Shown here: one piece after another, positions 35,540 to 54,347 of the stretch
Layout of the letters: each line of letters opens with the position of its first letter
Position numbering within the stretch: the stretch's first letter is position 1
Position numbers and translations under genes: made by a program
Notes under the pieces: model-generated
Told to the model about the DNA's origin: nothing
Seen by the model: the letters and a program-made list of their open reading frames with translations, nothing else
Database searches by the model: none
NCBI GenBank assembly: GCA_028285085.1
Contig: JANQQI010000102.1
Span: 1-54,347 of the forward strand
From: Saprospiraceae bacterium
GTDB taxonomy: Bacteria > Bacteroidota > Bacteroidia > Chitinophagales > Saprospiraceae
Direction: 5' to 3'
DNA: 54,347 nucleotides

Positions 35540-37510
35540 ATGTCCATCAGAATGTTACCACTGTGGCTGGGATTGCTATGCCAGGCCTTTTTTGTTCAAC
35601 CACTACTAGCACACGATCCTCCAACCTTTAGTTGCAGTACCCGAGATACCGAGGCAGAATGGATCCCCGAAGCAACAACTGCACGTACAGACTTAAACTG
35701 TGACCTCACAAATTTAACCCAACAAGAGATTGATGAATTACCCGAAATCACCATTTGGGTGAATGTGCATTTCATCGGACCGGTAGGGGCGAATTTTGAA
35801 CCGGGTACAGGTGTCGATGGGAATGCCTATGCGCAGAATATGATTAACAAGGCTAATGAATATTTGTCGGATATGAAACCGAGCCCAACGCATACGGCCG
35901 ATTTCTTAGGAGATAGTAAATATCGCTTAAGGCTATTTTCTGATCCTAATAATTCAGCTGATTTGCACGGTGGTATTTGGTATTGGACGAGTGTACCCAC
36001 TTTCTACCCTTACGGTGACAATGTTTTAAATATAATCATGCGCGATATTGGTACTGCGGGTAGTTTTGATTTCGGCGGCTCCGCTTGTGGCCTGAATACC
36101 TGCGATAAAATCTTCTTAAATGACGCCTACGATAATGCGGCTAATGGTGGCTCTTGGAATTGGTGGAACTATGCCCGTATTACGCTGCATGAGACAGGTC
36201 ACGTTTTTGGTTTGTGTCATAGCTTTTATTGTGGAAACCCTTGCGATGGCGATGGCTTGGATGTAGCTGCGGAGTGCTCCATCAATAGTTGTTATAGCAG
36301 TTGTGGGCAATCCCCCGGAACATTTTGCGATAATTGGAATTCCGGGAGTTCGAATATGATGGGGTATAATCCTAAGAACTGGTCGTTGACACCTTGTCAA
36401 TGGGCGGCGGTTTATACACGCTTGGCGACCACCTCGGCAGCGTATGTGCAGCGCTGCGAAATCGTGGATCAATTCCCCGAAATGGCTGGCTTTGAAAATG
36501 ATTTTAATGGATGGAATCATTCGCCTTGCGACGATTTCAGTTGGCAGCGCAACAGCGGCCCAACTCCTTCCTTTGGAACAGGTCCCAGCAATGCCGCCCA
36601 AGGAAGTTATTATGCCTATATCGAAGCGACTAATAATTATAATCAATCCGCGACTCTGACCAGCCCTTGTATCGTTATCGATGAACCCGATTACCAGCTA
36701 AGCTTTCAATATCACATGTATACTTTCGGAGGAAGCGGCTCTATGGGCAATCTTTTAGTTGATATTAGTTATGATGAGTGCCAAACCTGGAATACGATCT
36801 GGGCAAAAATTGGTGGTCAAGGCCCCGATTGGCAAGGCGCAACATTAAGTATTCCGTACACTGAAGGTGAGGCCTTCAATCTTCGATTTCGTGGTACGGT
36901 GAAGAGTTCTCATCTGGGGGACATCGCAATTGACGCGGTACGGATTTCGGCTTGTGAGCCACCGGCTATCCCCGGTACGATTACACAGACTTTTAATGAG
37001 GATTGTAGCTCAACGTTTAGTATCGCACCGGTAACGGGAGCGTCTTCTTATGACTGGTCACTTCAATCCGCACCTAATTATGTGGGGTTGATTGAGAATG
37101 GAACGACTCAGGCGACTGCTTTTTTCACTTCAGCACCTTCTCCTACCGCAATTATTAACCTTTGTGTTCAGGCCTATAATGCTTGTGACGCAGGTGATTT
37201 AAAATGTCAGTGGTTTGAGTTGGGATGTGAAACTATTCGTCGGGATGGATCCTCTTCACCTCTGGAAAATAGGGATCAGACGTTAGACCTTTTTCCCAAT
37301 CCAGCCAGGGATCATGTAACGATTCAATTAAATGCAAGAATTCAAAATGCCCAAGGTCGTATTTTTGATACCAAAGGGCAGGAATGGCGTCGATTTATTT
37401 GGACGGGCCAATCGCTGGAGGTAGATATCAGTGAATTACCTTCGGGGATTTACTTCGTAAAGTTCAATACTGCAGATGGATTACTGACCAAAAAATTAGT
37501 AGTACAATAG
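35540..37510 (+). CDS. Secreted M43-type zinc metallopeptidase with MAM-like domain and T9SS tail
   Basis: 656 residues. Signal peptide to about residue 25 (ending LLAHD); propeptide-like region; peptidase domain with HETGHVFGLCH at 217-227 and Met turn SSNMMGYNP (Met273/274), typical of cytophagalysin/pappalysin-like M43 enzymes. Many Cys around the active site suggest disulfides. A MAM-like jelly roll follows (about 315-475; FENDFNGWNH...DDFSWQRNSG...QLSFQYHMY), then an Ig-like stretch and a type A T9SS domain (about 580-656; LDLFPNPARDHVTIQL). It should act outside the cell on proteins. It lies between the PorP/PorE pair and the giant adhesins and could trim surface proteins, though general protein degradation is equally possible. 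Confidence 0.88.
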   Translation: MSIRMLPLWLGLLCQAFFVQPLLAHDPPTFSCSTRDTEAEWIPEATTARTDLNCDLTNLTQQEIDELPEITIWVNVHFIGPVGANFEPGTGVDGNAYAQNMINKANEYLSDMKPSPTHTADFLGDSKYRLRLFSDPNNSADLHGGIWYWTSVPTFYPYGDNVLNIIMRDIGTAGSFDFGGSACGLNTCDKIFLNDAYDNAANGGSWNWWNYARITLHETGHVFGLCHSFYCGNPCDGDGLDVAAECSINSCYSSCGQSPGTFCDNWNSGSSNMMGYNPKNWSLTPCQWAAVYTRLATTSAAYVQRCEIVDQFPEMAGFENDFNGWNHSPCDDFSWQRNSGPTPSFGTGPSNAAQGSYYAYIEATNNYNQSATLTSPCIVIDEPDYQLSFQYHMYTFGGSGSMGNLLVDISYDECQTWNTIWAKIGGQGPDWQGATLSIPYTEGEAFNLRFRGTVKSSHLGDIAIDAVRISACEPPAIPGTITQTFNEDCSSTFSIAPVTGASSYDWSLQSAPNYVGLIENGTTQATAFFTSAPSPTAIINLCVQAYNACDAGDLKCQWFELGCETIRRDGSSSPLENRDQTLDLFPNPARDHVTIQLNARIQNAQGRIFDTKGQEWRRFIWTGQSLEVDISELPSGIYFVKFNTADGLLTKKLVVQ

Positions 37511-37796: not shown

Positions 37797-40700
37797 ATGC
37801 AGCACATACGTTTACTTCTGTTCTTCTCTTTTTTATTTCTGTCTGTTCAAACTGTTCAAGCCCAAGTCGACGCTGATTTTACTTATAGCGCCACGACTGG
37901 TTGTGGATCTTTGCAAGTCTCATTTTGTGATTTTTCACAGAGTGCAACGAGTCAAATTGTATCCTGGGATTGGGATTTGGGCGGGGCACCGTCGAATTTA
38001 GAATGCCCGGGGAGGGTATTCGGTATACCTGGAAGTTATACCATTTGCTTGACGGTGACGGACGCAGATGGTAATTCCGACACTGAATGTAAAACGGACC
38101 TGATCACGGTCTACAATCTTCCGGATCCCGACTTTATCGCGGATAAAACCCAAGATTGTGCACCGGGGACTTTTGCATTTACGGATATGTCCAATTCGAT
38201 AGATGGAAATATTAATGAGTGGACTTGGGGCTTAGGTGGTTCGTGTGGAACCATCGTCACTACCGCACCTAACACACCCGCAGCCATTTGTACCTACGGC
38301 ATTCCTGATGATTATTCTATCAGTTTGACCGTAAAGGATGACAATGGATGTGTGAATACTATTACTAAGGATGACTATCTGACAGTATCCGAAGTACCGG
38401 CCGTTTCTATCGCGGCGAGTAGTAACTTCGGCTGTGAAGCGCCATTCACCGTATCCTTTCTAAACACCAGCACTCAGGCAAGTGTGATGGATTTTGAATG
38501 GAATTTTGGTAATGGTCAAGAATTTTCTGGTGATACACCACCGCCGGTTACTTACAGTTCCAACGGCACGTATTCAATTACGGTGATTGGAACCAATACA
38601 AATACTGGCTGTAGTGATACACTAATTTTAGAGGATTATATTACGATCGGTTACCCGATTGATTTTGACTATACACCTTCTGAAGGTTGCGTCGGGATGA
38701 GTGTTGATTTTACGGATTTATCACCAAATGTGGCTTCCGAAGTCACCTGGGATTTTGGTGATGGCAATACCAGCAATGATCCAAGTCCAACTCATACCTT
38801 TAACACGCCAGGTTGCTACTTTGTGAAGCTGACGCGTACTGTGAGCGGTTGTGAAACCGAGCAATACGCCCAGCAATGCATCTTGGTCAACGCACCTTCC
38901 AACGTTACCGTGAGTAACGATAATAACATTGGCTGTTCATTACCTCATGTTGTTAATTTTACTGGCATCTCTAGCGATGTCACTAGCTGGTTGTGGGATT
39001 TTGGAGATGGTACTTCACAAAGTACCCTCCAGAATCCTACCCATGTTTACAACAGCTACGGCACTTTTGAGGTAAACTTAATAACTACCAACGTAGCAGG
39101 CTGTACCGATACGATGTTCGTCAATTCTATTGACGTGCGTGAGGTCGTCGCTCAGTTGGTCGATGATGATATCTCCGGCTGTGCGCCTTTGGAGATTACC
39201 TTGTGTGAAGACTCGGAAAGCGTGACTTCCATTACCAATTGGTCTTGGCAGGTCTCTACGACGAGTAATACTTTCATTTCTTTTTCAGAATGTCCAACCT
39301 TTACGATTTCGGATACTGGAAAATTTGATGTGATCCTGACGGTTACGAATACGCTGGGATGTTCCAACACCGTAACCTTTGATGATGTGATCAACATCGG
39401 TGATAATCCAACACTTTCTTTTGATGCCACGCCGACGGAATCTTGTGTAGAAACACCAATAGATTTTACGGATATGTCAGAAGAAACAGTAGACTACTGG
39501 TATTGGGACTTTGGTGATGGCAATGATGCGGAGGAACAGAATCCAACCCATTTCTATTTGGATACGGGATATTATGATGTGAATTTAATTGGGTCGCACA
39601 ACGGTTGTGTGTCGTCGATTACCTATCAAAACTATATTCATATCACCGCACCGGTGGCGAAGTATGATATTATTGAGTTTTGTGATAATAATTTCCAACG
39701 CAAGTTCAAAGATAATTCGGTTGGTGCCGATTCTATCTTGTGGGACTTTGGGGTAACGGGAATCACAACGGATACCTCGACGGCTCAAAATCCGGATTTC
39801 ATTTATCCCGATACTGGGTACTATGATGTATCGATGACGGTTTTTAATGCGACCACAGGTTGTCAGCATACGCGTATGGAAACGATCCATGTGACGAATC
39901 CAAAAGCATTATTTACCCCGTCTGTAGTCAATGGTTGTGCTCCGCTGACTGTGACTTTGCAGGATCAATCTGAATTTGCTGAGAATTATACTTGGTCAAC
40001 ACCATCGGGAGTACTCTCTGATCCAAACGTGGCCGAACCGACTTTGTATTTAGAAGATCCGGGAGCCTACACAGGGGTGCAATTGATTATTCAGGATGAA
40101 AATAACTGTCGGGATACGATGGTGCTCAGCGATATGATTTATGCCAATACCATTGAAATGGACCTCGGGGTTGATATCAGTGGTGGCTGTGTACCATTGA
40201 CGACCACGTTTACTGATCTTTCGAATAATTTATACACCAATAATACGTCCTGGGAATGGACCTTCGGTGAAAACCTGGGGACATCCAATGCCCAAAGCCC
40301 AAGTTTTACATTCGATGAAACTGGAGAGTTCGCTGTGGAACTCACTGTGACAGATGATTGGGGCTGTTCTGCTACACAGGTTTTCGATAATGCAGTTAGT
40401 GCTTCACAGCCTATTGCCTTTTTTGAAACGGAAGATTTTGGCTGTACCGGAAATAGCATCAGCTTTATCAATATCTCGGATGGAGAAGACTTGTCTTTTT
40501 TGTGGGATTTTGGTGACGGGACGTCAACCGAAGAAGCACCTGAGCATTCCTTTTCTGCTGAAGGTGTTTACACCGTTTGTTTGACCATTACAGACGTCAA
40601 TAACTGTAGCGATACTTACTGTCTGGATGATTACATCACCATTAATGATCCAGAGGCTGATTTTACAGTAGATAACAACTTTGCATCATGTCCTCCGATG

Positions 40701-43379
40701 ACGGTGAATTTTACCAACATGTCAACGGACGCTGTAGAGTACAAATGGGATTTTGGTGATGGCACTACATCTACACAAGAAGAACCAACCCATGTTTATA
40801 CCATTCCGGGTACCTACGAAGTGATGCTGATTGCTTCAAGTACACCTTTCTGCCATGACACCATTAAATTCGATGATTTTATCGTATTGGATGGCCCGGT
40901 AGGAGAGTACGTCTTTGACGTCGATTCAACTTGTGCGCCAGCAACCATTACCTTTATTGGTAATTCGGTGGCCGATTATGAGTATACCTGGGATATGGGA
41001 GATGGACAATTATTTTCTAGCAACGCCTTTATTGATGCTGATACCATTGTCTACACATATGCTCTGCCGGGTAATTATACACCAACTTTGAGTCTGGAAA
41101 ATCAGACCGGTTGTTTCCGAACTTTGCCCAATCACGGTCCAATTCGCGTCTCTGCTTTGACTGCTGATTTTACAGCCTCGGATACCTTGCTCTGCGATGA
41201 TAATGTACCGATTACGTTTTTCAACCTTTCCAGTACTAATCATCCTTTAACCAAGGTGGATTGGTCTTTCGAAGATGGAAATCCACTGACGAGTGAAGCT
41301 GTTGAGGAGATTGTCACTTTTGATAATGTCGGTACATTTGATGTGACTATGATCGTTAGCAATGGTTTTTGTTCGGATACTTTGACTAAAAACGATTTCA
41401 TCAGTATTGGTCCAAAACCAACTGCTGATTATGTAATGGATACCAATGAAGGCTGTGAGCCGCTTAGTGTAAGCTTTACCGATCAATCAGGAATTGCTGG
41501 AGGTAGTATTACCGATTGGGAGTGGGAATTTGGCGATGGTTTTGGGGCCAACGGACCGAACACCAACCACGATTTTGCTGCTGGTGAAGATATCCCTGTA
41601 AGCTTAATTGTGACTTCTGCGGAAGGCTGCCGAGATACGATGACCCAAACCGTGACCTCGTTTGCCGCCACAGCGGTTGATTTGGGCGATGATCTTGAAA
41701 TCTGTATCGGCGAAACGGTTCCATTAATCGCAACAGTCGATAACAATCTCGCTGGAGCAACCTATGGCTGGGCGCCGGCTACTGGACTGAGCTGTACAAA
41801 CTGCCTTGATCCATTGGCCGATCCAGTGACAACGACTACTTATACGTTTACTTTCGTCAACGCGGATGGTTGTGAAACAATAGAAACAGTAACGGTACAA
41901 GTTTTACCTTACAGTGTACCTACCGTAACAACTAGCCCGGATTTAACCATCTGTGCTAATACTTCGACGACCTTGAGTGCCGATGCTGGTGCTGGTAATT
42001 ATACTTACGAGTGGGATGCTTCACGCCCTGGCTTGGATTGTTATCTAAATTGTGCGAACCCAGTAGCAACGCCAACTCAATTGACGACCTACGTGGTCAC
42101 CGTGACGAGCGAGTTTGGTTGCTCAACCGTAGATTCTATTACTGTGGATGTTCTAGACGAATCTCAAAGCTTCGCGGGTGATGATCGTATCATTTGCGAG
42201 GGGGGTAGCGCGCAGTTGAATCTTTCGATGGGGAATAATCCCGTATGGCTGGTCACTGACGGCTTAAGCTGTACCAATTGTGCTAGCCCGATAGCTTCGC
42301 CCGGACAACCTACAACTTATGTGGTGCAAGTAACCACAAACTTTGGTTGTACCATTTTTGATACGCTCTCGATCGATATCATGTATCCAGAAGATATTAA
42401 TGCTGGATTTGATCAATCCATTTGTCTAGGCGAAGAGGTCAGCTTATTCGGTATCGGTGATGGTACAGTAAGCTGGAGTCCAGCGGAAGATTTTGCTGAT
42501 CCAGGTGTCTGGAATCCAGTCATTACACCAACCGAAACGACGACCTATTTTATGACAGTAACTAATGGCGATTGTAGCCTTACGGATGCCATTACCGTTG
42601 AAGTAACTGAATATACAGATATTGAACTTGAGGATATGACCATCTGTGAAGGAGAAATGGTGGCTTTGGAAGTAGACGGACAAGCAGACATCTTCGAATG
42701 GCTGCCAGGACCTGGCCTGACCAATCTCACTTCGCCATCTCCAATGGTTAATCCTGCGGATACGACGACATACACGGTTATTGCTACCTTGGCGAGTTGT
42801 CAGCCGGATACGGCTACGATCACCGTAAATGTGATCCCGGCGCCAGAGACGGAGTTAGCTTCCTATCAAGATGTCTTCCCCGGTAGTTCAATTCAATTGG
42901 ACCTAGAAGCGGATGATCCATTCTACGCTCATGTTTGGTCACCAGACATTGGATTGAGCTGTATTACTTGTGAAGATCCGGTGGCGACTCCGGATACCGT
43001 ATCCATGTATTACGTGACCACTACGGATTTCAATACGGGATGCTCCGCAGTGGATAGTATCCGAATGAATCTGCTGAATACTTGTCCTTCTGATTTGATT
43101 AGTCTGCCTAATATTTTCACGCCTAACTTCGATGGTCAGAATGATATCTTAGATATCTATATCTCTGAAACTTTATTGAACTATGGTAGTGGAACCTTTA
43201 GAATCTACGATCGCTGGGGTGCCCTGATGTATGAAACGGATGATTTGACGCAAGGCTGGGATGGTACCTATCGAGGTAAAGCAATGCCAGACGGTGTGTA
43301 TTTATACTACATTGAAGCACCTTGTCCGATTACTGGAGGCACCTTCATTGTTCAAGGCGATGTGACGTTGCTGCGTTAA
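37797..43379 (+). CDS. Giant PKD-repeat surface protein 1 with CHU_C (type B T9SS) tail
   Basis: 1860 residues. Signal peptide to about residue 23 (VQTVQAQ). About 15 PKD-type modules follow (24-1295; motif WDFGDGxxS plus a Cys near the start, such as GCAPLxVxF, and one near the end, such as GCxDT), then six Ig-like modules (about 1297-1760) opening with xxICxGExVxL, most of which carry LSCTNCxxPxAxP. The CHU_C gliding-motility-associated domain lies at about 1770-1860 (LPNIFTPNFDGQNDILDIYI, RIYDRWGALMYE, WDGTYRGKAMPDGVYLYYIE). The type B tail marks it for T9SS export with PorP/SprF help. The structure suits a long surface filament or adhesin. It is the first of three tandem paralogues, with a terminator at 43408-43440. 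Confidence 0.9.
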   Translation: MQHIRLLLFFSFLFLSVQTVQAQVDADFTYSATTGCGSLQVSFCDFSQSATSQIVSWDWDLGGAPSNLECPGRVFGIPGSYTICLTVTDADGNSDTECKTDLITVYNLPDPDFIADKTQDCAPGTFAFTDMSNSIDGNINEWTWGLGGSCGTIVTTAPNTPAAICTYGIPDDYSISLTVKDDNGCVNTITKDDYLTVSEVPAVSIAASSNFGCEAPFTVSFLNTSTQASVMDFEWNFGNGQEFSGDTPPPVTYSSNGTYSITVIGTNTNTGCSDTLILEDYITIGYPIDFDYTPSEGCVGMSVDFTDLSPNVASEVTWDFGDGNTSNDPSPTHTFNTPGCYFVKLTRTVSGCETEQYAQQCILVNAPSNVTVSNDNNIGCSLPHVVNFTGISSDVTSWLWDFGDGTSQSTLQNPTHVYNSYGTFEVNLITTNVAGCTDTMFVNSIDVREVVAQLVDDDISGCAPLEITLCEDSESVTSITNWSWQVSTTSNTFISFSECPTFTISDTGKFDVILTVTNTLGCSNTVTFDDVINIGDNPTLSFDATPTESCVETPIDFTDMSEETVDYWYWDFGDGNDAEEQNPTHFYLDTGYYDVNLIGSHNGCVSSITYQNYIHITAPVAKYDIIEFCDNNFQRKFKDNSVGADSILWDFGVTGITTDTSTAQNPDFIYPDTGYYDVSMTVFNATTGCQHTRMETIHVTNPKALFTPSVVNGCAPLTVTLQDQSEFAENYTWSTPSGVLSDPNVAEPTLYLEDPGAYTGVQLIIQDENNCRDTMVLSDMIYANTIEMDLGVDISGGCVPLTTTFTDLSNNLYTNNTSWEWTFGENLGTSNAQSPSFTFDETGEFAVELTVTDDWGCSATQVFDNAVSASQPIAFFETEDFGCTGNSISFINISDGEDLSFLWDFGDGTSTEEAPEHSFSAEGVYTVCLTITDVNNCSDTYCLDDYITINDPEADFTVDNNFASCPPMTVNFTNMSTDAVEYKWDFGDGTTSTQEEPTHVYTIPGTYEVMLIASSTPFCHDTIKFDDFIVLDGPVGEYVFDVDSTCAPATITFIGNSVADYEYTWDMGDGQLFSSNAFIDADTIVYTYALPGNYTPTLSLENQTGCFRTLPNHGPIRVSALTADFTASDTLLCDDNVPITFFNLSSTNHPLTKVDWSFEDGNPLTSEAVEEIVTFDNVGTFDVTMIVSNGFCSDTLTKNDFISIGPKPTADYVMDTNEGCEPLSVSFTDQSGIAGGSITDWEWEFGDGFGANGPNTNHDFAAGEDIPVSLIVTSAEGCRDTMTQTVTSFAATAVDLGDDLEICIGETVPLIATVDNNLAGATYGWAPATGLSCTNCLDPLADPVTTTTYTFTFVNADGCETIETVTVQVLPYSVPTVTTSPDLTICANTSTTLSADAGAGNYTYEWDASRPGLDCYLNCANPVATPTQLTTYVVTVTSEFGCSTVDSITVDVLDESQSFAGDDRIICEGGSAQLNLSMGNNPVWLVTDGLSCTNCASPIASPGQPTTYVVQVTTNFGCTIFDTLSIDIMYPEDINAGFDQSICLGEEVSLFGIGDGTVSWSPAEDFADPGVWNPVITPTETTTYFMTVTNGDCSLTDAITVEVTEYTDIELEDMTICEGEMVALEVDGQADIFEWLPGPGLTNLTSPSPMVNPADTTTYTVIATLASCQPDTATITVNVIPAPETELASYQDVFPGSSIQLDLEADDPFYAHVWSPDIGLSCITCEDPVATPDTVSMYYVTTTDFNTGCSAVDSIRMNLLNTCPSDLISLPNIFTPNFDGQNDILDIYISETLLNYGSGTFRIYDRWGALMYETDDLTQGWDGTYRGKAMPDGVYLYYIEAPCPITGGTFIVQGDVTLLR

Positions 43380-43407
43380 GACTAAATTATACTTTGTTTT
43401 TGGGCAG

Positions 43408-43440
43408 AAGGCCAGTTCGTAATGACGGACTGGCCTTTTG
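43408..43440 (+). terminator. Terminator after giant gene 1
   Basis: The stem AAGGCCAGTTCGT with ACGGACTGGCCTT (13 bp, one wobble, loop AATG) lies 28 bases after the stop and is followed by a short T run (TTTTG). Confidence 0.8.
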
Positions 43441-43523
43441 TTATTAGCCATTTTGCAACAACTTTTGATTTTTCTGTGACATCACTTTATTTGTTAATAG
43501 AAAATGAGTGTTTTTTATAAAGT

Positions 43524-43536
43524 ACTGATAATCAGT
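43524..43536. repeat. Palindrome upstream of giant gene 2
   Basis: ACTGAT-A-ATCAGT is a perfect 13-base palindrome about 125 bases before the start of the second giant gene, a suitable place for an operator. It has not been matched to any known regulator site. Confidence 0.3.
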
Positions 43537-43660
43537 TTTTAGTAAAGAAATTTTTTATACCAAAACGAGATAAATCAACTCAAAGTGTTATTTGACTAAC
43601 GGCATCAATTTTGGCATAGCAGGGGTGAATTATCATGAGTTCATCAACTTAAAGAAGCGT

Positions 43661-46600
43661 ATGAAACGAGCAAGCTTACTAATTGCCTGCCTGACTTTTC
43701 TGTTAATTGCCAACCTGACTCAAGCACAGGTTACCGCTAACTTCACTGCGAATAATACGGAAGGATGTGGATCGTTGCAAGTCTCCTTTACGGACTTGTC
43801 GACCTCTTCTGCTGGTAGTATTGTCAGTTGGAGCTGGGACTTGGCTGGCGTTCAATCGAGTAATCAGAATCCAGGCCGGATTTATGGTACCCCCGGAAGT
43901 TACACTATTTGTCTTACCGTGACGGACAGCGATGGCAACACCGACACAGAATGTAAGTCTAATTTCATTCGGGTACTTCACTTGCCCGATCCTGATTTTG
44001 AGGCGATCCCCGCACAAGGTTGTGCACCTCTGGATGTCGTCTTTCAAGATCAATCCAATTCTATTGATGGAAATATCACACAATGGATTTGGGGGCTTGG
44101 TGGTTCTACCGGAGTCATTATTGACAACGGACAAAATCCACCAATCACATCAACTTATGCTTTAGTTGATGAATATTCTATCACCTTGACGGTAAAGGAT
44201 GACAATGGCTGTTCAAATACAGTGACTAAAAGTGACTACGTTGTCGTTTCACCTGATCCGGTAGTGAATTTTACCGTTTCGGATGATTTCTCCTGTACGG
44301 CACCTTTTGTGGTGACCTTTCAAAATACCGGAGATACAGATGACATGAACTTTTTCTGGGATTTTGATAACGGCTTTACCTTTTCGGGGACGACTCCGCC
44401 TGCCGTTGCTTATACTGATCCCGGAACTTATTGCCCGACACTGATTGGTACAAATGCCATTACAGGTTGTTCGGATACGATGACCTTGTCAAATTGTATC
44501 CAGGTCGGTTATCCAATTGATTTTTCAGTTTCTACCAACGAAGGTTGTAGAGACTTGACGGTTAATTTTACGGATAATTCACCGAACACAGCTTCTGAGG
44601 TGATCTGGGATTTCGGCAACGGAGATTCGTCTACCGTCGCCAATACTAGTTATACTTATACCCAACCGGGATGCTATACGGTGAGCCTGACACGCAATGT
44701 AAATGGCTGTATTACCACGGTCTATCACGATCAGTGCATCGACGTTTTTGATTTACCTGATGTCAACTACGCGAATACCAATCCTATGGGATGTACGGTA
44801 CCGCACACCGTTGAATTCATTGGTTTTTCTAATGACGCCGTAGCTTGGGTGTGGGACTTCGGTAACGGAGATTCATCAACCTTACAAAATCCTATTTACA
44901 CCTACGAAGAACTCGGGTTTTACAACGTGACGTTGACCGTTGTCAATGACTTCGGTTGTACTTCTACGGTTGATTATCAGCAAATTGGTATTCAATCCTT
45001 AAACGCCGATATTCCAAGTGGACAGATCGAAGGTTGTACGCCTTTAGATGTAACGCTGACGGATAATTCTTCTACCATTGTTCCGATTTTAAATTGGGAA
45101 TGGGAAGTGATTTATAATTCATCGACGCCACCATTAGTGCAAACGTCAAATGATGCGGTTCCAACTTTTACCTTAGTTGATACTGGATTCTATGATGTTC
45201 GACTTGTTGTTACCAACCAAATTGGTTGTGTTGATACCACTTATTTTACGCAGCGTATTGCTGTAGGTATGCCACCAACGATTAACATGGATGCCGATCC
45301 TAATGAGAATTGTGTAGAAACGGTCATCTCATTTTTCGATCAGTCAAGTGATTATGCGAACAGTTGGCGCTGGGAGTTTGGCGATGGAGCAGTTACTGAA
45401 GAACAGAACCCTGAGCATGAATATGCCGATACCGGTTATTATGATATCACTTTAACGGCCTGGCATCATGGATGTATCAATTTTGAAACCTTCGAAAATT
45501 TCATACTGATTAATCCACCTAAAGCGGCCTTTTCCGTGAATCGAGATTGTGAAACACCTTATTACATTGAACTAGTTGATATGTCTATCGGTGCGGACTC
45601 TATCTTTTGGGATTTTGGTGTGCCAGACATGGAATCGGATACCACCTCTGAGGCTAACCCCGTCTTTACTTTTCCGGATCGTGGTACTTACACAATTACG
45701 ATGCAAGTGTTCAATTTTGAAGAAGAATGTGAAGATGATGAAACATTTACCTTAACGATAACGGATCCAGTCGCCCAGTATGACTTAGGGCCAATGACTG
45801 GATGTGCACCGCACCCCGTGTTTATAGACAATAATTCCATTGATGCGAACGAATACAGTTGGACTGCGCCTGGTGCGGTTATTTCTGATCCGACAATTAG
45901 AGAACCCGTTTTAACCTACAACAATGACGGCATATACTCAGATATTGAACTGATCATTACCGATATTAATGGTTGTCAAGACACCATGTTGGTACAAGAT
46001 TCTATTTGGGTGAATGATATTGATGTACAATATGCTCTTGATCCTACAGGTGGTTGCCGACCGTTGACGGTGAGTTTTACCGACCAATCGACGACGACTT
46101 TTGGTAATAACATTGCATGGGATTGGTACTTCGACGGTGCTATAGCTAACTCATCGGAACAAAATCCCGTACTTACTTTTCCCGAGAATGGATTGATCGA
46201 TGTCAGGTTAACCGTTGAAAATGACTGGGGATGTATTAAGTCATTAACGGTGCAAGATCAAATCGAAGTCACCTATCCATCGATTAATTTTACAGCCGAT
46301 ACTTACGGGTGTACTGAGCATGAGATAAGCTTCAATAACGCTTCTACCGGAAAAGCTTTGACTTACCTGTGGGATTTCGGTGATAATACAACTTCAACGG
46401 CGGCTAATCCTACGCACTTGTATACCGCCGAAGGCGTTTATTCCGTTTGTTTGACGGCCACGGATTTCTATGGCTGTGATTCTACTTTTTGCCGAGAAGA
46501 TTACATCGTGATTGCTGATCCTGTAGCCGCGTTCACCGCGGATACAACTTATGCAACTTGCCCACCATTGTTAGTTAATTTTACCAATGAGTCATTACAC

Positions 46601-49252
46601 GCGAATACCTTTAACTGGAATTTTGGCGATGGCAGTGGTAATTCTGAATTAGAAAACCCACCACACCTCTATAGTGCTCCCGGCGAGTATGATGTAATGC
46701 TTATTGCTTCCTCGACGGCCTTTTGCCATGATACACTGGTCTTACCGGAATATATTGAAATCGATGGTCCTATCGGTGATCTGGCTTTTGATATTGATAG
46801 TGCTTGTGTGCCGGCGGTAATTACCTTCACCGGTGAATCACTGGATGCCTATAACTATATTTGGGACTTTGGTAACGGGGTGCTAGACAGTACATTGAAT
46901 GTATCTACAGATACAATTATGTATACTTATGAAGAAGTTGGACGCTACGTTCCCAAATTGATCCTCGTTGATAATATGGACTGTGCGATTGCCTACGAAT
47001 CGCCAGATACTATTCAAATAGAGCGACTTGATATTGACTTTCAGGTAACAGATCAATTGTTATGTACCGGAGAGTCCCAAACCTCTTTTATTAACTTGAC
47101 CTTTTCTACGGTACCTATCGAGTATCTCGAGTGGATTACTCCGGGAGCTGATGTGCCTACTACCACCCAATCCGAACCAATGCTGGTGTACGATACGGTT
47201 GGCTTATTCGATGTTAGTTTGATTATTGATAATGGCTTCTGTCGCGATACCTTACAACGCCCAGAACAAATTCGGGTGGGTGAAACGCCGGTAGCAGACT
47301 TTGCGATGTCTGGTGATATTGGTTGTGCACCTTACGTGGTGAATTTCACGGATGCTTCTACCGTTGGTACCGGAGCAATTACCGAATGGGATTGGACCTA
47401 TTCTGATGGAGATGATTCGCAGTTACAAAATCCGACTCACGTTTTTGATGAGCTGGGAGAACATACGATTGAATTAGCGGTAACTACCGATATTGGCTGT
47501 TCAGATACGACTTCACAAAGCTTGGAAGTACTTCCAATGCCAGAAGTGGAGTTTGCAGATAACCATGTGATTTGTATGGGGCAAACGGTCCAACTGGTTG
47601 GAGAAGTATTAACTGATCCTACAGGTTTGGATTTCAACTGGATTCCCGATCCGGCTTTGAACTGTACCAATTGCCTGGAGCCTTGGGCTAGCCCATTGGA
47701 TACGACTACCTTTTATCTAATAGTAAGCAATGCGATTGGTTGTGCGGATACCACGGCCGTAACGGTGAATGTTCGACCATTCCCCGCACCTGTAGTGGAG
47801 TCCACTAGCGATACGACGATTTGTGCTAACGAGGTCGTCCAATTGATGGTTAGCGGAGGTAATGATATTTATGAATACCAATGGGATACCTCTGCGGAGG
47901 GACTCAGCTGCTACGATGATTGTTTCAATCCGGTGGCTTCCCCAACCGAAACAACTATGTACGTGGTTGCCGTAACGAATCAATATGAATGTCAGACGCT
48001 TGATTCGATTACCGTTGAAGTAATTGATCAATTCCAACCATTTGCTGGCCCGGATCGGACGATCTGTGAGGATGCCAGTATCCAACTGGATGCAAGCTTT
48101 GGAAATGATCCTGTTTGGACCGTTAGTGATGGACTAAGTTGTTCTTACTGCCCAACACCGATCGCATCTCCGGAGGAAACGGTTACCTATGTGGTACAAG
48201 TAACGACAGATATTGGATGCGAAGTGATCGATTCGATTACTGTGAATGTGATGACAGATGAAGATGTGAGCGCAGGACCTGATTTGATGGTCTGTGAAGG
48301 AGAGTCCATTCAGTTGGAAGCGAAAGGGGAGGGGACGATCACTTGGACGCCAGCCACTGACTTGGATAATGCTACCATTATTCGCCCAATGGCTAGTCCA
48401 AGTAATACTCAAGTCTACACCTTAACTGTAACTAATGATGAATGTACCATAACCGATGATGTAGAAATCACGGTAGCGACGCGCGCAGAAATTCAGGCGG
48501 ACGCGGTTACGATCTGTAATGGCGAGTCAATCGAACTACGTGCCTACGGCATTGCTGATGAGTATGAGTGGCTTCCAGAAGAAGGAATCACGGATTTGAA
48601 TGTTGCGAATCCAGTGGTGAATCCAACGGAGACTACTACCTACACCGTCATCGGTAAGTTGCGGACCTGTGAAGAAGATACTATTCAAGTGACGGTTACT
48701 GTCATCCAAGGACCGGAGATTTATATTCCGCCGGTATATGATTTTCTCCCTGGCCAAACGGTGCAAATGGAGGTTGATGTACCTGAAGTGACGGGCTACA
48801 CTTACGAATGGTCCCCTGCTGAACCACTCACTTGTATCAGTTGTGCTAATCCAGAAATTACACCGGACTCTACTCAGGCATTTGCCGTTGAGGTAACCGA
48901 CCCTAATACGGGGTGTACCAGCCGGGCAGAAACGATCGTCGCTGAACTGACGGATTGCCCGGAAGATTTGATTAACGTTCCGAACATCTTTACCCCTAAT
49001 AATGATGGGGTAAACGATGCACTGGACTTGCACCTTTCACCGAGTTTATTTGAAACCGGAATTTACTCCTTCCGCATTTTCGATCGCTGGGGAGCTACTG
49101 TGTTTGAAACCTCAGATTACACCGAGACCTGGGATGGAACCCTGAAAGGCAAAAACTTGCCATCGGGTGTATTCATCTACCTGATTGAAGCCCCTTGCCC
49201 AATCACTGGTGGACAATTTATGAAAACCGGGGATATTACCCTGTTAAGATAA
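43661..49252 (+). CDS. Giant PKD-repeat surface protein 2 with CHU_C (type B T9SS) tail
   Basis: 1863 residues from the ATG at 43661. The open frame extends back to a TTG at 43592, but the signal peptide MKRASLLIACLTFLLIANLTQAQ fixes the start at 43661. The order of modules matches protein 1: about 15 PKD-type modules to about residue 1297, six Ig-like modules (xxICxGExVQL; LNCTNC, LSCYDDC, LSCSYC, LTCISC) to about 1765, and a CHU_C domain (1773-1863; NVPNIFTPNNDGVNDALDLH, RIFDRWGATVFE, WDGTLKGKNLPSGVF). By eye about half the residues are shared with protein 1, with the N-terminal module and tail best conserved. The predicted role is the same: a T9SS-exported surface adhesin. It has a separate leader and terminator, so it can be expressed independently of its neighbours. 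Confidence 0.9.
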   Translation: MKRASLLIACLTFLLIANLTQAQVTANFTANNTEGCGSLQVSFTDLSTSSAGSIVSWSWDLAGVQSSNQNPGRIYGTPGSYTICLTVTDSDGNTDTECKSNFIRVLHLPDPDFEAIPAQGCAPLDVVFQDQSNSIDGNITQWIWGLGGSTGVIIDNGQNPPITSTYALVDEYSITLTVKDDNGCSNTVTKSDYVVVSPDPVVNFTVSDDFSCTAPFVVTFQNTGDTDDMNFFWDFDNGFTFSGTTPPAVAYTDPGTYCPTLIGTNAITGCSDTMTLSNCIQVGYPIDFSVSTNEGCRDLTVNFTDNSPNTASEVIWDFGNGDSSTVANTSYTYTQPGCYTVSLTRNVNGCITTVYHDQCIDVFDLPDVNYANTNPMGCTVPHTVEFIGFSNDAVAWVWDFGNGDSSTLQNPIYTYEELGFYNVTLTVVNDFGCTSTVDYQQIGIQSLNADIPSGQIEGCTPLDVTLTDNSSTIVPILNWEWEVIYNSSTPPLVQTSNDAVPTFTLVDTGFYDVRLVVTNQIGCVDTTYFTQRIAVGMPPTINMDADPNENCVETVISFFDQSSDYANSWRWEFGDGAVTEEQNPEHEYADTGYYDITLTAWHHGCINFETFENFILINPPKAAFSVNRDCETPYYIELVDMSIGADSIFWDFGVPDMESDTTSEANPVFTFPDRGTYTITMQVFNFEEECEDDETFTLTITDPVAQYDLGPMTGCAPHPVFIDNNSIDANEYSWTAPGAVISDPTIREPVLTYNNDGIYSDIELIITDINGCQDTMLVQDSIWVNDIDVQYALDPTGGCRPLTVSFTDQSTTTFGNNIAWDWYFDGAIANSSEQNPVLTFPENGLIDVRLTVENDWGCIKSLTVQDQIEVTYPSINFTADTYGCTEHEISFNNASTGKALTYLWDFGDNTTSTAANPTHLYTAEGVYSVCLTATDFYGCDSTFCREDYIVIADPVAAFTADTTYATCPPLLVNFTNESLHANTFNWNFGDGSGNSELENPPHLYSAPGEYDVMLIASSTAFCHDTLVLPEYIEIDGPIGDLAFDIDSACVPAVITFTGESLDAYNYIWDFGNGVLDSTLNVSTDTIMYTYEEVGRYVPKLILVDNMDCAIAYESPDTIQIERLDIDFQVTDQLLCTGESQTSFINLTFSTVPIEYLEWITPGADVPTTTQSEPMLVYDTVGLFDVSLIIDNGFCRDTLQRPEQIRVGETPVADFAMSGDIGCAPYVVNFTDASTVGTGAITEWDWTYSDGDDSQLQNPTHVFDELGEHTIELAVTTDIGCSDTTSQSLEVLPMPEVEFADNHVICMGQTVQLVGEVLTDPTGLDFNWIPDPALNCTNCLEPWASPLDTTTFYLIVSNAIGCADTTAVTVNVRPFPAPVVESTSDTTICANEVVQLMVSGGNDIYEYQWDTSAEGLSCYDDCFNPVASPTETTMYVVAVTNQYECQTLDSITVEVIDQFQPFAGPDRTICEDASIQLDASFGNDPVWTVSDGLSCSYCPTPIASPEETVTYVVQVTTDIGCEVIDSITVNVMTDEDVSAGPDLMVCEGESIQLEAKGEGTITWTPATDLDNATIIRPMASPSNTQVYTLTVTNDECTITDDVEITVATRAEIQADAVTICNGESIELRAYGIADEYEWLPEEGITDLNVANPVVNPTETTTYTVIGKLRTCEEDTIQVTVTVIQGPEIYIPPVYDFLPGQTVQMEVDVPEVTGYTYEWSPAEPLTCISCANPEITPDSTQAFAVEVTDPNTGCTSRAETIVAELTDCPEDLINVPNIFTPNNDGVNDALDLHLSPSLFETGIYSFRIFDRWGATVFETSDYTETWDGTLKGKNLPSGVFIYLIEAPCPITGGQFMKTGDITLLR

Positions 49253-49285
49253 TTCAAGATCTATTTGTATGCTTCTTTAGTTGTA

Positions 49286-49315
49286 AGGCCTCCGGCGAAA
49301 GTCGGGGGCCTCTTT
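49286..49315 (+). terminator. Terminator after giant gene 2
   Basis: AGGCCTCCG pairs with CGGGGGCCT (one wobble) around the loop GCGAAAGT, followed by CTTTG. The T run is short, but the stem is GC-rich and lies 33 bases after the stop. Confidence 0.7.
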
Positions 49316-49490
49316 GTTTATGGGGGAGTAAAGACTGCTTAAATTTTGGATGAAGATGATATTAAAAACTTTCTTTAAGTAACAGATACATTTTTTCCAA
49401 ATACTTTCTTAACTTTGTGAAGCACCTAATTATTTATCAATTTAGGTGTCAATCGTTTTAATTTAGTTTTAATACCCATAGCCATTCTCA

Positions 49491-49525
49491 ATTGCTAGTA
49501 GAACATTTATTCTTCTGTTAGCAAT
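49491..49525 (+). promoter_or_regulatory. Leader hairpin upstream of giant gene 3
   Basis: ATTGCTAGTAGAA and TTCTGTTAGCAAT form a 13-bp RNA stem with two G-U pairs and a 9-base loop. It lies after the candidate -7 box and would be in the transcribed leader, about 135 bases before the start codon. Confidence 0.4.
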
Positions 49526-49658
49526 AGCATTCAACTTTATATCTGCTTGCTTAAATCGCTCTCCGAGACCTTGATCGCTTAAAACGGAGAAGGGAACAGT
49601 CTGTTTACAGACGCACTGGACTTTGTATTTTTAATCAACCCAGATAGGAATCGACAGA

Positions 49659-52600
49659 ATGCCGAAGAACACTGCCTCACGCACTATTTTATGTTTGCTA
49701 TTAGCTTGCTGCTATCTGACCGTATTCGGTCAGGTGAGTGCTAATTTTTCGGCTAATAATACTAGTGGTTGTGGTTCCTTGCAAGTGGCCTTTACCGACT
49801 TATCAACTTCTACAGCGGGAAGTATCGTGAGCTGGAATTGGGACTTGGGCGGCGTTGAATCCGTAGCTCAGAATCCCGGTCGAATTTTTGGTACTCCCGG
49901 GACCTATACTATTTGTCTTACCGTTACGGATAGTGAGGGCAATACGGACACCTTTTGTGCAGAAGACTTGATCACTGTTTTCGAACTTCCCCAACCTGAT
50001 TTTGCGATCGATCCTGCCGAAGGCTGTATTCCTTTGACGGTCACTTTTACCGATCAATCAACTTCAGTTGATGGGGCTATTGAAGAATACATCTGGGGAT
50101 TAGGAGGTTCCGCGGGGGTTATTATTGATGATGGAAGTCAGCCGGTCTTAACCTCTACCTATAACTTGCCCGACGCTTATAGTGTGAGTTTGACTTTGAC
50201 CGATGAAAATGGATGTGTCAATACTACTACCAAAGATAGTGTCATTACGGCCGTCGCTCCACCTATACTTGATATCGCAATTTTAGATTCTTTCAGCTGT
50301 GTGCCACCTTTGGCGGCTAGTTTTATAAATAATAATATAGAACCTGATGTGACCTATTTTTGGGATTTTGGAAATGGGTTGCCGATTTATCAGGGGGCCA
50401 ATCCACCATCTCCTTTTTATAACCAACCTGGTCAATATACAGTAACTGTTGTTGCCGAAAATAACTTGACGTCCTGTACCGATAGCATTACTTTAGAAAA
50501 TGCGCTCCAGATTGGTTATCCTATTAGTTTTAATTTTGATCAAGAAGAAGGGTGCCTACCACTGAGTGTTAACTTTACGGATACTTCACCGGATGCGGCG
50601 AGTATTATCTTCTGGGATTTTGGCGATGGTAATCAATCTTCTTCTGCCAATCCAAATCATGTTTACACTGAGCCGGGCTGCTATACCGTGACGCTCACCC
50701 GAACGGTTAATGGTTGCCAACTGACCGAAACGTCTACCAACTGCATCCAGGTTAATCCACTACCTATTGGTGGTTTTCTGATGGATATTGCAAATGCCTG
50801 TGAGTTTCCACACACCGTAAACTTCAATTCCATCGTACCAAATACCATTGAGGACTGGGCTTGGGATTTTGGTGACGGGAACCAATCTAATGCTGAGGAT
50901 CCAAGTCATACTTACGAAAGCTTTGGTATATTTCCAGTGAGCTTGGAAATTTCGGATAACAATGGTTGCGCTTCTGTTTTTTACGATACCGTTAATATCA
51001 TTGAAACACAGGCTATTATTTCAACAAATCCGGTACTGGGTTGTGCGCCGCTCAGTTTTCAACTCACTGAAAGTTCTATCTCGGTTAGCCCCATTATTGA
51101 TTGGGAATGGCAAATTGCGAATGCCAATGATCCTGCTAATCCAATTGTAACGGTAAATGGGGCCCAGCCAAGTCTAAGTCTTGCGGATACCGGGGTGTAC
51201 AATGTGACTCTAATCATCACCAACTCTCTTGGCTGTCAGGATGTTGCTACTGCAAATAGTTTGATACGTGTCGGGATACCACCCGAAGTCAATTTTGAGG
51301 CAATACCAACAGTGGCTTGCGTAGATGACGAAATTCAATTTAATAGTATCGTAAGTGACTACACAGATAGTTGGATCTGGGATTTTGGGAATGATGCAAC
51401 GTCAGGGGAGGCAAATCCCGCCTATGCTTATACTTCTGCTGATGTTTACTCGGTAAGTTTAACTGTTTTTTATAATGGCTGTCCGGCATCGTTGACCTTG
51501 GCAGATTACATCACGATCAATTATCCACAAGCGGAATTTGCCGTTAATCGGGATTGTGCTTCTCCTTACGTGGTTAATTTTGTGGATGAATCAATTGAAG
51601 CAGATTCTATTATCTGGGATTTTGGACTAGAAGGTGACCAAGACACCTCAACTGCTGCTACTCCAACTTTCGTCTATCCCGATACCGGTTGTTATATGGT
51701 GGTTCTTACCGCTTTTAACGATTCAACGGGCTGTGAGAATACAGCTTCAATAGAAGTTTGTATTACCGACCCTTTAGCCAGTTTTAGTCTAGCACCAACT
51801 AGCGGTTGTGCCCCTTTAGCCGTTGAGGTTACAGATAACTCGATTTTTGCGGTGGAATGGAATTGGCAAGCTCCTGGTGCGCAGATTGCTAATAATGGAA
51901 CACCTAATCCTACGATTACCTTTAATAATCAAGGGCTATACGATGATATTCAACTTGTGATCACCGATATCAATGGTTGTACGGACTCCTACAGTTATGA
52001 TGGTACGATAACCGTTAATGATGTCACCCCACAGTTTACCCCCTTACCCAATGGGGGCTGTTTACCATTAGATGTTCAATTTGAGGATAACTCAACCAGC
52101 TTCATTGGAGAGATCATTGAATGGGATTGGAATATTGGAAATGGCTTATTATTATCGACTATTCAAAACCCAACGTATACTTTTGATACGCTGGGTACTT
52201 TCCCGGTTTCGTTGACGGTGACTAACGATTGGGGGTGTACGGGAACCCTCACCGTTCCGGATGCTGTCAACGTGACCTTACCCACAGCGAATTTTACGAG
52301 TGATTCTTTGGGATGTACACAAAGTTTATTCAACTTTTTTGATAATTCGGAAGGGGAGGGCTTGAACTATTTATGGGATTTTGGCAATGGCGATAGCTCA
52401 ACCGAAGCTAATCCAATGTATCAATACCCTAATGAAGGAACCTATGATGTGTGTTTAGAGATTATGGATATGTTTGGTTGTGAGCAAACTTACTGTGAGC
52501 CCGTATTCATTAACGACCCGTTAGCGCAGTTTAGTTTGGATTCTAGCTTCTCGGAGTGTCCACCTTTGCTGGTCAATTTTACTAATCTTTCAATCAATGC

Positions 52601-54347
52601 CTCAACTTTTCAATGGGATTTTGGGGATAACAGTGGTAGTTCAAACCTTGAAGATCCACCTCACGTTTACACTGTTCCCGGGATTTATGATGTCAGCTTA
52701 ATCGCGACTTCTACGCCGGTCTGTTCGGACACATTACTGATGGAAGATTTGATCACTTTGGAAGGTCCTCTGGGCGATTTTTCTTTTGATATTGATACGG
52801 CTTGTGTTCCGGCTACGATTACCTTCTTCGGAACAGCCGTTGATAATTATGATTTCATCTGGGACTTTGGGGATGGACAGCTGGATACGACTTTGAATAC
52901 GATGACGGATACTATTGTCCATACTTTTGCCAACGCTGGGGATTATATACCAAATTTGATCCTCGTCGATGGGAACGATTGTCAACGGACATTGCAGTCA
53001 CCGGATACTATTCGTTTAGCTGAATTGATCATTGATTTTGTCGCGTCAGATTCCTTGATTTGTGATAATGATAACTTGGTGAGTTTCTTGAATTTGACGA
53101 ACTCTTCCAACAATATTACAAATCTGGAATGGCGATTCGAAGGTGGGAATCCAGAGGTGAGTAATGATTTTGAACCCGCGGTGAATTACCTTGACCCCGG
53201 CATTTTTGATGTCACCTTGATTATCGCAAACGGCTTTTGTGTCGATTCCTTAGTCAAAGAAAATCTAATTAATACGGGGCCAACACCGAACGCGGTTTTT
53301 ACAACTAGTACCAATGAAGGCTGTGAACCGTTACCTGTCCAATTCACGGATGAGTCCACTGTGTTTTTAGGTGATGTTGATTCTTGGAATTGGCAATTTG
53401 GAAATCAAGGCGCTTCCCAACTTGAGAACCCTCAATTTATTTTTACTGAACCCGGCGAGCAATTAATTGAATTGATTGTGGAAACAAATTTTGGTTGCAG
53501 TGATACGGCCTACACTACCATTGTAGTTAACCCACAACCTGAATTTGTACTCTCTATGTCGGATCAAGATATTTGTATTGGAGACTATACCCAGCTGAAT
53601 GCTGTTTTCGAAGGAGACACCACGGGGGTGGATTACAATTGGTGGGCTATGCCAGAATTAAGCTGTCTGAATTGCACCTCACCACTAGCAAATCCAGTGG
53701 ATACTACGGTGTATACCTTCACCGCTATGAACGAATTTGGCTGTGTAAATACCGCTTCGATTACCGTGAATGTTCGACCGTACGAAATCCCTGAAATCAC
53801 TATTTCCCCCGATACCAGTATTTGCTTGGGAGAGGTTGTTCAATTACAAGTAGAAGGAGGCGCAGATGTATACGAATACCAATGGGATACCTCTCGTCCT
53901 GGCTTGAGTTGTTACGATAATTGTTTTAATCCAGTAGCGACACCACTATTCCCAACAACTTACGTGGTAACGGTAACAAACGATTTCGGTTGTGATGCTG
54001 AGGATTCAACGTTCGTTAACATCATAGATCAAGCACTGTCTTTTGCTGGAGAGGATCGGACCATTTGTCGAGGAGACACGGTGCAGCTCAATACCTTTAT
54101 TGGAGCTGATCCAGTATGGCTGAACTCCAACAGTTTAAGTTGTTCTTATTGTAGTGATCCTTTAGCTTTTCCAGAAACGACCACCACCTATCAAATTCAA
54201 GTCACCACTGTGGAGGAAGGCTGTGAGCTTTTCGATTCGGTGCAAGTTATTGTTACTCAAGCTGAGGATATCGACGCGGGTGTGGAGCAGGAAATTTGTC
54301 GTGGCGAAGAAACTGAGCTGGAAGGTTTGGCCTTTGGCGCAGTGAGC
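49659..54347 (+). CDS. Giant PKD-repeat surface protein 3 (3' end outside window)
   Basis: I read this frame from the ATG at 49659 to the last base: 1563 codons without a stop, so the gene continues past the window. The signal peptide is MPKNTASRTILCLLLACCYLTVFGQ. The first module (GCGSLQVAFTDLSTSTAGSI, SWNWDLGG, NPGRIFGTPGTYTICLTVTD) is nearly the same as in proteins 1 and 2. About 15 PKD-type modules reach to about residue 1298, followed by Ig-like modules (DICIGD, TSICLGEVVQL, RTICRGDTVQL, QEICRGEETEL); the window ends inside the fourth. By comparison with its neighbours about 300 residues remain, ending in a CHU_C domain (inference). Same predicted role: T9SS-exported surface adhesin. Confidence 0.9.
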   Translation, partial: MPKNTASRTILCLLLACCYLTVFGQVSANFSANNTSGCGSLQVAFTDLSTSTAGSIVSWNWDLGGVESVAQNPGRIFGTPGTYTICLTVTDSEGNTDTFCAEDLITVFELPQPDFAIDPAEGCIPLTVTFTDQSTSVDGAIEEYIWGLGGSAGVIIDDGSQPVLTSTYNLPDAYSVSLTLTDENGCVNTTTKDSVITAVAPPILDIAILDSFSCVPPLAASFINNNIEPDVTYFWDFGNGLPIYQGANPPSPFYNQPGQYTVTVVAENNLTSCTDSITLENALQIGYPISFNFDQEEGCLPLSVNFTDTSPDAASIIFWDFGDGNQSSSANPNHVYTEPGCYTVTLTRTVNGCQLTETSTNCIQVNPLPIGGFLMDIANACEFPHTVNFNSIVPNTIEDWAWDFGDGNQSNAEDPSHTYESFGIFPVSLEISDNNGCASVFYDTVNIIETQAIISTNPVLGCAPLSFQLTESSISVSPIIDWEWQIANANDPANPIVTVNGAQPSLSLADTGVYNVTLIITNSLGCQDVATANSLIRVGIPPEVNFEAIPTVACVDDEIQFNSIVSDYTDSWIWDFGNDATSGEANPAYAYTSADVYSVSLTVFYNGCPASLTLADYITINYPQAEFAVNRDCASPYVVNFVDESIEADSIIWDFGLEGDQDTSTAATPTFVYPDTGCYMVVLTAFNDSTGCENTASIEVCITDPLASFSLAPTSGCAPLAVEVTDNSIFAVEWNWQAPGAQIANNGTPNPTITFNNQGLYDDIQLVITDINGCTDSYSYDGTITVNDVTPQFTPLPNGGCLPLDVQFEDNSTSFIGEIIEWDWNIGNGLLLSTIQNPTYTFDTLGTFPVSLTVTNDWGCTGTLTVPDAVNVTLPTANFTSDSLGCTQSLFNFFDNSEGEGLNYLWDFGNGDSSTEANPMYQYPNEGTYDVCLEIMDMFGCEQTYCEPVFINDPLAQFSLDSSFSECPPLLVNFTNLSINASTFQWDFGDNSGSSNLEDPPHVYTVPGIYDVSLIATSTPVCSDTLLMEDLITLEGPLGDFSFDIDTACVPATITFFGTAVDNYDFIWDFGDGQLDTTLNTMTDTIVHTFANAGDYIPNLILVDGNDCQRTLQSPDTIRLAELIIDFVASDSLICDNDNLVSFLNLTNSSNNITNLEWRFEGGNPEVSNDFEPAVNYLDPGIFDVTLIIANGFCVDSLVKENLINTGPTPNAVFTTSTNEGCEPLPVQFTDESTVFLGDVDSWNWQFGNQGASQLENPQFIFTEPGEQLIELIVETNFGCSDTAYTTIVVNPQPEFVLSMSDQDICIGDYTQLNAVFEGDTTGVDYNWWAMPELSCLNCTSPLANPVDTTVYTFTAMNEFGCVNTASITVNVRPYEIPEITISPDTSICLGEVVQLQVEGGADVYEYQWDTSRPGLSCYDNCFNPVATPLFPTTYVVTVTNDFGCDAEDSTFVNIIDQALSFAGEDRTICRGDTVQLNTFIGADPVWLNSNSLSCSYCSDPLAFPETTTTYQIQVTTVEEGCELFDSVQVIVTQAEDIDAGVEQEICRGEETELEGLAFGAVS

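Follow-up and report, generated by a model that had tools for sequence, protein, structure and literature searches.

The right end of contig C102 of a Saprospiraceae bacterium, analysed whole and hereafter called the window (54,347 bases), carries on its plus strand a tandem array of three giant surface-protein genes, A, B and C. The three proteins share one architecture, one module order and nearly one length, and are old, well-separated paralogues, each kept intact, standing downstream of a gene for an outer membrane carrier of the PorP/SprF family and a PorE-like gene. The interpretation we favour, with modest confidence, is that A, B and C would be specialised, separately transcribed rods exported as type B cargo of the type IX secretion system (T9SS), held at the surface by the PorP/SprF carrier and tethered through the PorE-like protein. 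The array comprises the following genes:

37797..43379, plus strand: giant copy A, 1860 residues, with signal peptide, 15 PKD modules, 6 immunoglobulin-like (Ig-like) modules and a type B C-terminal domain (CTD)
43661..49252, plus strand: giant copy B, 1863 residues from its ATG, with 15 PKD modules, 6 Ig-like modules and a type B CTD
49659..54347, plus strand: giant copy C, first 1563 residues, open at the window end
contig C24 (L030:18200-19234), minus strand: remainder of copy C, consisting of the overlap and a CHU_C frame; the joined C has 1863 residues

Architecture of the three giants

Each protein begins with a putative signal peptide, read by eye as a hydrophobic N-terminus followed by glutamine. 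The listed open reading frame (ORF) of copy B opens at TTG 43592; the ATG at 43661 yields the 1863-residue protein with a fitting leader. A Pfam scan returned many PKD_4/PKD matches per giant and CHU_C in A and B, and a hand count from the conserved first cysteines gave 15 PKD modules. The original prediction of a signal peptide, about 15 PKD modules and then Ig-like modules, with CHU_C ends on the first two proteins, is thereby confirmed. It had also placed the switch between module types at nearly the same residue (about 1297, 1300 and 1301), close to our own cut, which falls at residue 1293 in A and, counted from its ATG, at 1295 in B. Its gene size of about 5.6 kb holds for A and B only, as C reaches 4.7 kb in the window because the contig ends inside the gene. 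The Ig-like modules match Pfam Ig_7 weakly, B (29.6 bits) falling just above the cut-off of 27.3 and A (23.8) and the C tail (21.2) below it. All three giants end in a type B domain (TIGR04131/CHU_C; 55.2 bits in A, 50.0 in B and 69.5 in C on C24, against a cut-off of 35), C by way of its join to C24. SprB repeats (PF13573) were found neither in A, B and the window part of C (E<=0.001) nor in the C tail.

Read in reverse, contig C24 overlaps the window end by 132 nt with 4 mismatches and after the overlap supplies the rest of a 344-codon frame that ends in CHU_C. Synteny supports the join, as in the congener G001 A-B-C is followed by UPF0029, EamA, DUF1599, MauE and NusB, the gene order past C on C24. 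A fourth copy was considered and rejected, UPF0029 standing directly after C on C24 and in G001; in a second congener, G002, genes other than UPF0029 directly follow C. The search for copies beyond the window that had been proposed thus ends with C continuing on C24, then UPF0029, and no further copy seen. Among 143 own-genome matches there is no other N-terminal part with comparable identity. A collapsed, near-identical further copy could nonetheless account for the 4 mismatches of the 132-nt overlap.

Whole-gene duplication and the age of the copies

Modules were cut at fixed alignment columns to give 21 per protein. The equivalent module was the best match in 21/21 rows for A-B, 20/21 for A-C and 21/21 for B-C (62/63 in all), and in 21/21 columns for each of the three pairs. 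PKD modules score 193–221 on average with their equivalents versus 60–61 with non-equivalent modules; the ranges touch, with a lowest equivalent score of 126 and a highest non-equivalent one of 149. Inside one protein, PKD modules are on average 30–31% alike. Module lengths agree within ten residues across seven proteins (A, B and C of this genome and of G001, and the giant of G008). Against three single-copy relatives the agreement of equivalent modules is looser, at 59/63 rows and 54/63 columns. Duplication of whole genes without repeat shuffling, as originally proposed, is therefore upheld by 62/63 rows and 63/63 columns, and the contrary pattern, a non-equivalent module matching best, did not appear.

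The paralogues are 44–48% identical, and their fourfold degenerate sites agree in a fraction of 0.26–0.30 versus 0.25–0.26 by chance. Exact DNA matches reach at most 17–21 nt between copies versus 16–19 nt between orthologues. Recent gene conversion was considered, the first PKD module of B and C being orthologue-like, but was rejected: an own-genome paralogue is closer than the best orthologue in 15/198 module tests versus 12/198 in the control, and exact stretches are scarcely longer than between orthologues. The view that the copies are old and have not been homogenised is thus sustained. The ratio of non-synonymous to synonymous change (dN/dS) is not meaningful between paralogues, whose synonymous sites are saturated; between the relatives G153 and G052 it comes to about 0.05 in every copy (A, B and C), a rough value, as dS of 1.9–2.5 is near saturation.

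Of three congeners searched at E<=1e-120, G001 and G002 have a tandem of three copies, and G003 (75% complete) had no giant copy at that threshold. Among 150 family genomes, an even sample of a larger group with at most three candidates scored in each, 38 gave a match at E<=1e-150; 16 of these have two or three, fragments included, the counts stopping at three. A tree of 60 rows sorts the giants of different genera by position, with one group for each of A, B and C (approximate likelihood ratio support, SH-aLRT, of 100, 88 and 98). In a 26-row bootstrapped tree one clade (100/99) unites the A copies of five genera, while B and C hold within the genus and are unresolved across genera. A tree constrained to keep the genus's nine copies in one group is 175 log units worse (approximately unbiased test, p-AU 1e-15), which rejects triplication of the giants within the genus and, with it, the independent origins that would have contradicted the original prediction. 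Forcing together the six copies of a second genus is 169 log units worse (p-AU 1e-5). Clades of B and of C that span two genera are compatible with the data (p-AU 0.18 and 0.35). On these trees the trio is older than the genus, and the orthology of B and C across genera is weakly resolved. A plasmid search with copy A gave no match, and a literature search joining PKD domain, Saprospiraceae and type IX secretion returned nothing, nor any title on this locus.

A locked length

In long adhesins made of repeats, the number of repeats is generally expected to rise and fall. Giant ORFs number 70 in the window and the loci fetched, 51 of them complete; 47 form the family-level length count after four from the order-level genomes G035, G032 and G037 are left out. 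In 39 of the 47 the length is 1841–1900 residues. When aligned, all 39 have glutamine as the first mature residue and share 49 of copy A's 62 cysteines without exception; the module switch and the CTD lie 1254–1310 and 1720–1783 residues past the mature start. One length, a switch and a CTD at nearly constant places and such conserved cysteines imply that selection acts on the exact length or on modules specific to their position.

The other eight lengths are 1454, 1460, 1461, 1466, 1669 and 1677 residues, and 1491 and 468 residues from one split gene. The split gene, in G116 (L118:5647-11363), consists of two overlapping frames, through a frameshift or an assembly error. The giants of 1454, 1460 and 1461 residues (G083, G123 and G091) form one clade with a cut one of G112, and stand in the last place before UPF0029 (G091 L097, G083 L101, G123 L121). 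The 1466-residue protein is a divergent relative at 28% identity on contig C27 of the own genome (L031:6131-10531) and falls outside that clade. The order-level relative G035 has three giants on three contigs (L058, L059 and L060) of 3050, 1901 and 2000 residues; length is therefore not locked outside the family.

The carrier pair and the conserved site

Upstream of A lie CoaE (minus strand) and three genes on the plus strand:

32308..33345, plus strand: PorP/SprF-family outer membrane carrier gene, 345 residues, ending KACPIF; PF11751 at 144.7 bits
33351..35339, plus strand: PorE-like periplasmic protein gene, 662 residues, with TPR and PD40-type repeats (Pfam)
35540..37510, plus strand: MAM-domain protein with a type A T9SS tail (PF00629 and Por_Secre_tail), between the PorE-like gene and A

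The carrier scores 178.1 bits with TIGR03519 (cut-off 90.55). The PorE-like protein has T9SS_PorE and CHU_0125 as its best NCBIfam models and, near its C-terminus (538–606), weak OmpA-family traces (PDB matches at E 0.02 to 0.6). While the original interpretation stands as to duplication without shuffling and as to age, it passed over the carrier and PorE-like neighbours, which say most about mechanism.

CoaE, PorP and the PorE-like gene also precede the array in G001, G002, G153, G052, G085, G091 and G112. Among loci with at least two adjacent giants and a fetched upstream side, 8/9 have this arrangement (G037 and G116 were excluded, as their neighbouring pieces resemble one split gene); the ninth, G083, is without PorP and the PorE-like gene. 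No PorP or PorE-like gene was detected at the CoaE-linked giants of G083 (two) or of G096, G118 and G097 (one each). In several other relatives PorP follows the giant, instead of or besides an upstream one. The number of giants per CoaE...UPF0029 site varies from 1 to 3. Because CoaE-linked giants exist with and without the pair, the site, to judge from gene order, is of long standing, and the carrier pair probably arrived no later than the expansion of the giants. Between the PorE-like gene and A, where the MAM gene lies here, G001 and G002 have no gene. Further upstream in the window are two large SdrD_B proteins with type A tails (24784-29526 and 21151-24384, minus strand), the first also with SprB repeats.

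A model for secretion and a shared carrier

The sequences themselves show architecture, age, module order, constraint, gene linkage, CTD similarity and hairpins, and from these features we infer secretion, a shared carrier, a wall tether, adhesion and separate expression. In the proposed mechanism A, B and C, as three old and separated paralogues of one type B T9SS cargo, would be rods of 21 domains. At about 4 nm per domain, rod length is plausibly 80–100 nm. The signal peptide would direct export by the Sec pathway and leave glutamine as the new N-terminus, in keeping with the Q-rule for glutamine at the mature start (PMC10653852). The SprA translocon would then move the rods out of the cell, and the upstream PorP/SprF carrier would take all three by their related CTDs and stay as the surface anchor. 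The PorE-like protein would probably tie this carrier to peptidoglycan, as proposed for PorE-PorP-PG1035; given such a link, the rods would probably be static adhesive fibres rather than gliding adhesins. SprA and GldK are both present in the genome, which has 58 type B CTD matches (54 above the cut-off) and 16 PorP/SprF matches, so that type B cargo domains far outnumber carriers.

In Flavobacterium johnsoniae, type B cargoes are reported to use cognate carriers, most CTDs being 20–30% alike, whereas three cargoes with CTDs more than 44% alike have one common carrier (PMC12618676). A PorE-PorP-type B complex has been described (PMC9143113), and PorE-linked type B cargo is regarded as static (PMC12618676, PMC9143113). 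Cognate carriers, one carrier for closely similar CTDs and static PorE-linked cargo together favour a single wall-tethered carrier for the three rods. Within genomes of the genus, the CTDs of the trio are 51–61% identical versus 41–47% for the rest of the protein, in 9/9 pairs from three species. A close precedent is the set of orphan cargoes Fjoh_1123/1720/4934 with carrier Fjoh_1677, again three cargoes of related CTDs on one carrier; their locus numbers are far apart, so they form no tandem array, and sharing by A, B and C is deduced rather than demonstrated. As in PorE-PorP-PG1035 of Porphyromonas gingivalis and the Fjoh_3950-3952 operons of F. johnsoniae, type B cargo is encoded here with a PorP/SprF carrier and a PorE-like protein. 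Here, however, there are three cargoes of about 1860 residues, the carrier gene lies upstream, the PorE-like protein is only distantly PorE, and hairpins separate the cargo genes.

Several observations weigh against this model. CTD similarity is not proof of a shared carrier, because orthologous CTDs also exceed the rest in B and C, not in A (own genome versus G001, CTD and rest: 68/54% for B, 60/48% for C, 52/57% for A). In G052 the gap within the trio is smaller (CTD 45–51% versus 42–43% for the rest). CTD similarity is thus weak evidence of a shared carrier, and the CTD may just be a conserved domain. With 16 PorP matches in the own genome, another carrier could serve some copies. The PorE-like protein reaches 176.5 bits with T9SS_PorE and CHU_0125 alike, a tie far below the respective cut-offs of 600 and 620. 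Pfam recognises no adhesive domain in A, B or C, and the constraint on the copies is a rough estimate for the reason given above. The tail of the carrier, taken up next, counts most strongly of all against a purely static display.

Static or moving display

In the gliding system, the Cys-X-Cys tail of SprF is reported to be disulfide-bonded to GldK and required for movement (PMC12635249). By analogy, the rods could be track-driven adhesins, with a disulfide between the carrier tail cysteine and GldK, pulled along for gliding or prey handling. We regard this as possible but doubtful. A Cys-Pro pair lies within the last six residues of 28/28 PorP/SprF carriers of giant loci (21 genomes), 15 of which have a PorE-like gene next downstream; the 28 were chosen with a hidden Markov model grown from the PorP of the window, so divergent carriers may be missed. 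In the own genome the tail occurs in 6/16 PorP-family matches. GldK of this genome has two cysteines besides the lipid one, a GldJ-like protein is present at 443.5 bits, just under its cut-off of 458.2, and PorG of P. gingivalis, with one cysteine, has been cited as a further case. Such tails, including those on PorE-linked carriers, would favour motion and are the main evidence against a purely static reading. On the other side, the window carrier ends in CPIF with a single cysteine and not in Cys-X-Cys as SprF does, and the mobile F. johnsoniae cargoes are reported to lie outside operons with PorE-like genes (PMC12618676), whereas here a PorE-like gene is adjacent. The array resembles SprB/SprF in joining giant type B cargo to a PorP/SprF carrier with a cysteine in its C-terminal tail, and differs further in having no SprB repeats in A, B or C.

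The tail cysteine was also considered as a marker of PorE linkage and rejected. Among own-genome loci read about 1.5 kb to each side, 2/5 carriers with a PorE-like neighbour have the Cys-Pro tail, and so do four without a detected one. The own-genome PorP/SprF tails (L127-L142) include Cys-Pro, other cysteine forms (for example Cys-Tyr) and cysteine-free ones (for example Pro-Arg-aromatic). The PorP/SprF encoded beside GldK (L131) has no tail cysteine.

Separate units or a joint structure

Two hairpins of terminator type lie between the giant genes of the window:

43405..43440, plus strand: terminator-like hairpin after copy A, -29.9 kcal/mol (43395-43450), z -7.0, absent from the simple scan
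49286..49311, plus strand: terminator-like hairpin after copy B, top row of the simple scan, z -3.5, equalled by 1 of 200 shuffles

Of 13 internal copies, 10 are followed by a hairpin with T-rich tail whose energy is below that of all 12 control windows taken upstream in the same gene; both A and B are among the 10 in each of the three species of the genus covered. By the same criterion none was found after the C copies (0/3), nor after G052_A, G153_B and G112_A. The hairpin sequences differ between species. Scan totals show no enrichment, with 13 terminator-like hits versus 14.3 expected from shuffles and 34 sigma-70-like hits versus 34.6 expected; only single hairpins at gene ends stand out. 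Matches to a Bacteroidota-type promoter pattern number 2 in the window versus 2.47 expected, none of them near the array. Because terminator-like hairpins follow most internal copies, different conditions of use for the copies, as suggested in the original prediction, gain indirect support. The copies would be separate transcription units, and as such would let the cell choose or mix rods.

Should A, B and C instead co-assemble in one coat or fibre, or be kept for dosage, there would be no separate targets. Such a joint structure, which we consider unlikely, would suit their identical module number and order and their near-equal lengths. AlphaFold models of copy B are confident, all-beta chains (mean predicted local distance difference test score, pLDDT, of 93 for PKD1-5 and 89 for PKD15-CTD), and the best solved fold matches of both are fragments of GhpA, the grappling hook protein of Aureispira sp. 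CCB-QB1, whose hooks are described as heptameric (PMC11205867), a further point for co-assembly. By sequence profile PKD15-CTD matches GhpA, its CTD included, at E 1.6e-223; PKD1-5 gave no match at E<=0.001. GhpA as specific kin was rejected, another CHU_C protein of the own genome scoring higher (170 versus 117 bits). GhpA and the giants have in common Ig-like modules and a CTD of the GhpA kind, which are not specific, and differ in that GhpA has 5898 residues versus 1860–1863 for A, B and C. The resemblance is modular, and shows a shared building block and not a shared function. Against a joint structure, the copies differ at more than half of their residues, A stays distinct from one genus to another and B and C do so at least among species of the genus, and hairpins lie between copies, which together with the divergence suits specialised units better. 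Recent or recurrent local amplification, by which the copies arose separately in each genus and share their order since whole genes duplicate, is scarcely credible: the variation from 1 to 3 giants per site and the unresolved cross-genus clades of B and C would allow it, but the forced groupings of both genera and the single A clade of five genera go against it, and for A versus B and C it is already rejected.

Implications

What is new here is the length-lock, the ancient array that keeps its order downstream of a single carrier gene, and the Cys-Pro tail on 28/28 carriers of these loci. Specialised rods on a wall-tethered carrier are the reading we prefer, and a bolder combination may be entertained as a speculation to which we give little weight: one carrier with three alternative rods of locked length, held both through the PorE-like protein to peptidoglycan and by a covalent Cys-Pro link to the GldK ring or track. 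If true, the doubly held carrier would make the locus a system of exchangeable fibres through which Saprospiraceae couple adhesion to the T9SS motor. As a natural test case, the array bears on how a single T9SS carrier may serve more than one cargo, and on whether a carrier with PorE linkage and a cysteine in its tail displays its cargo statically or in motion.

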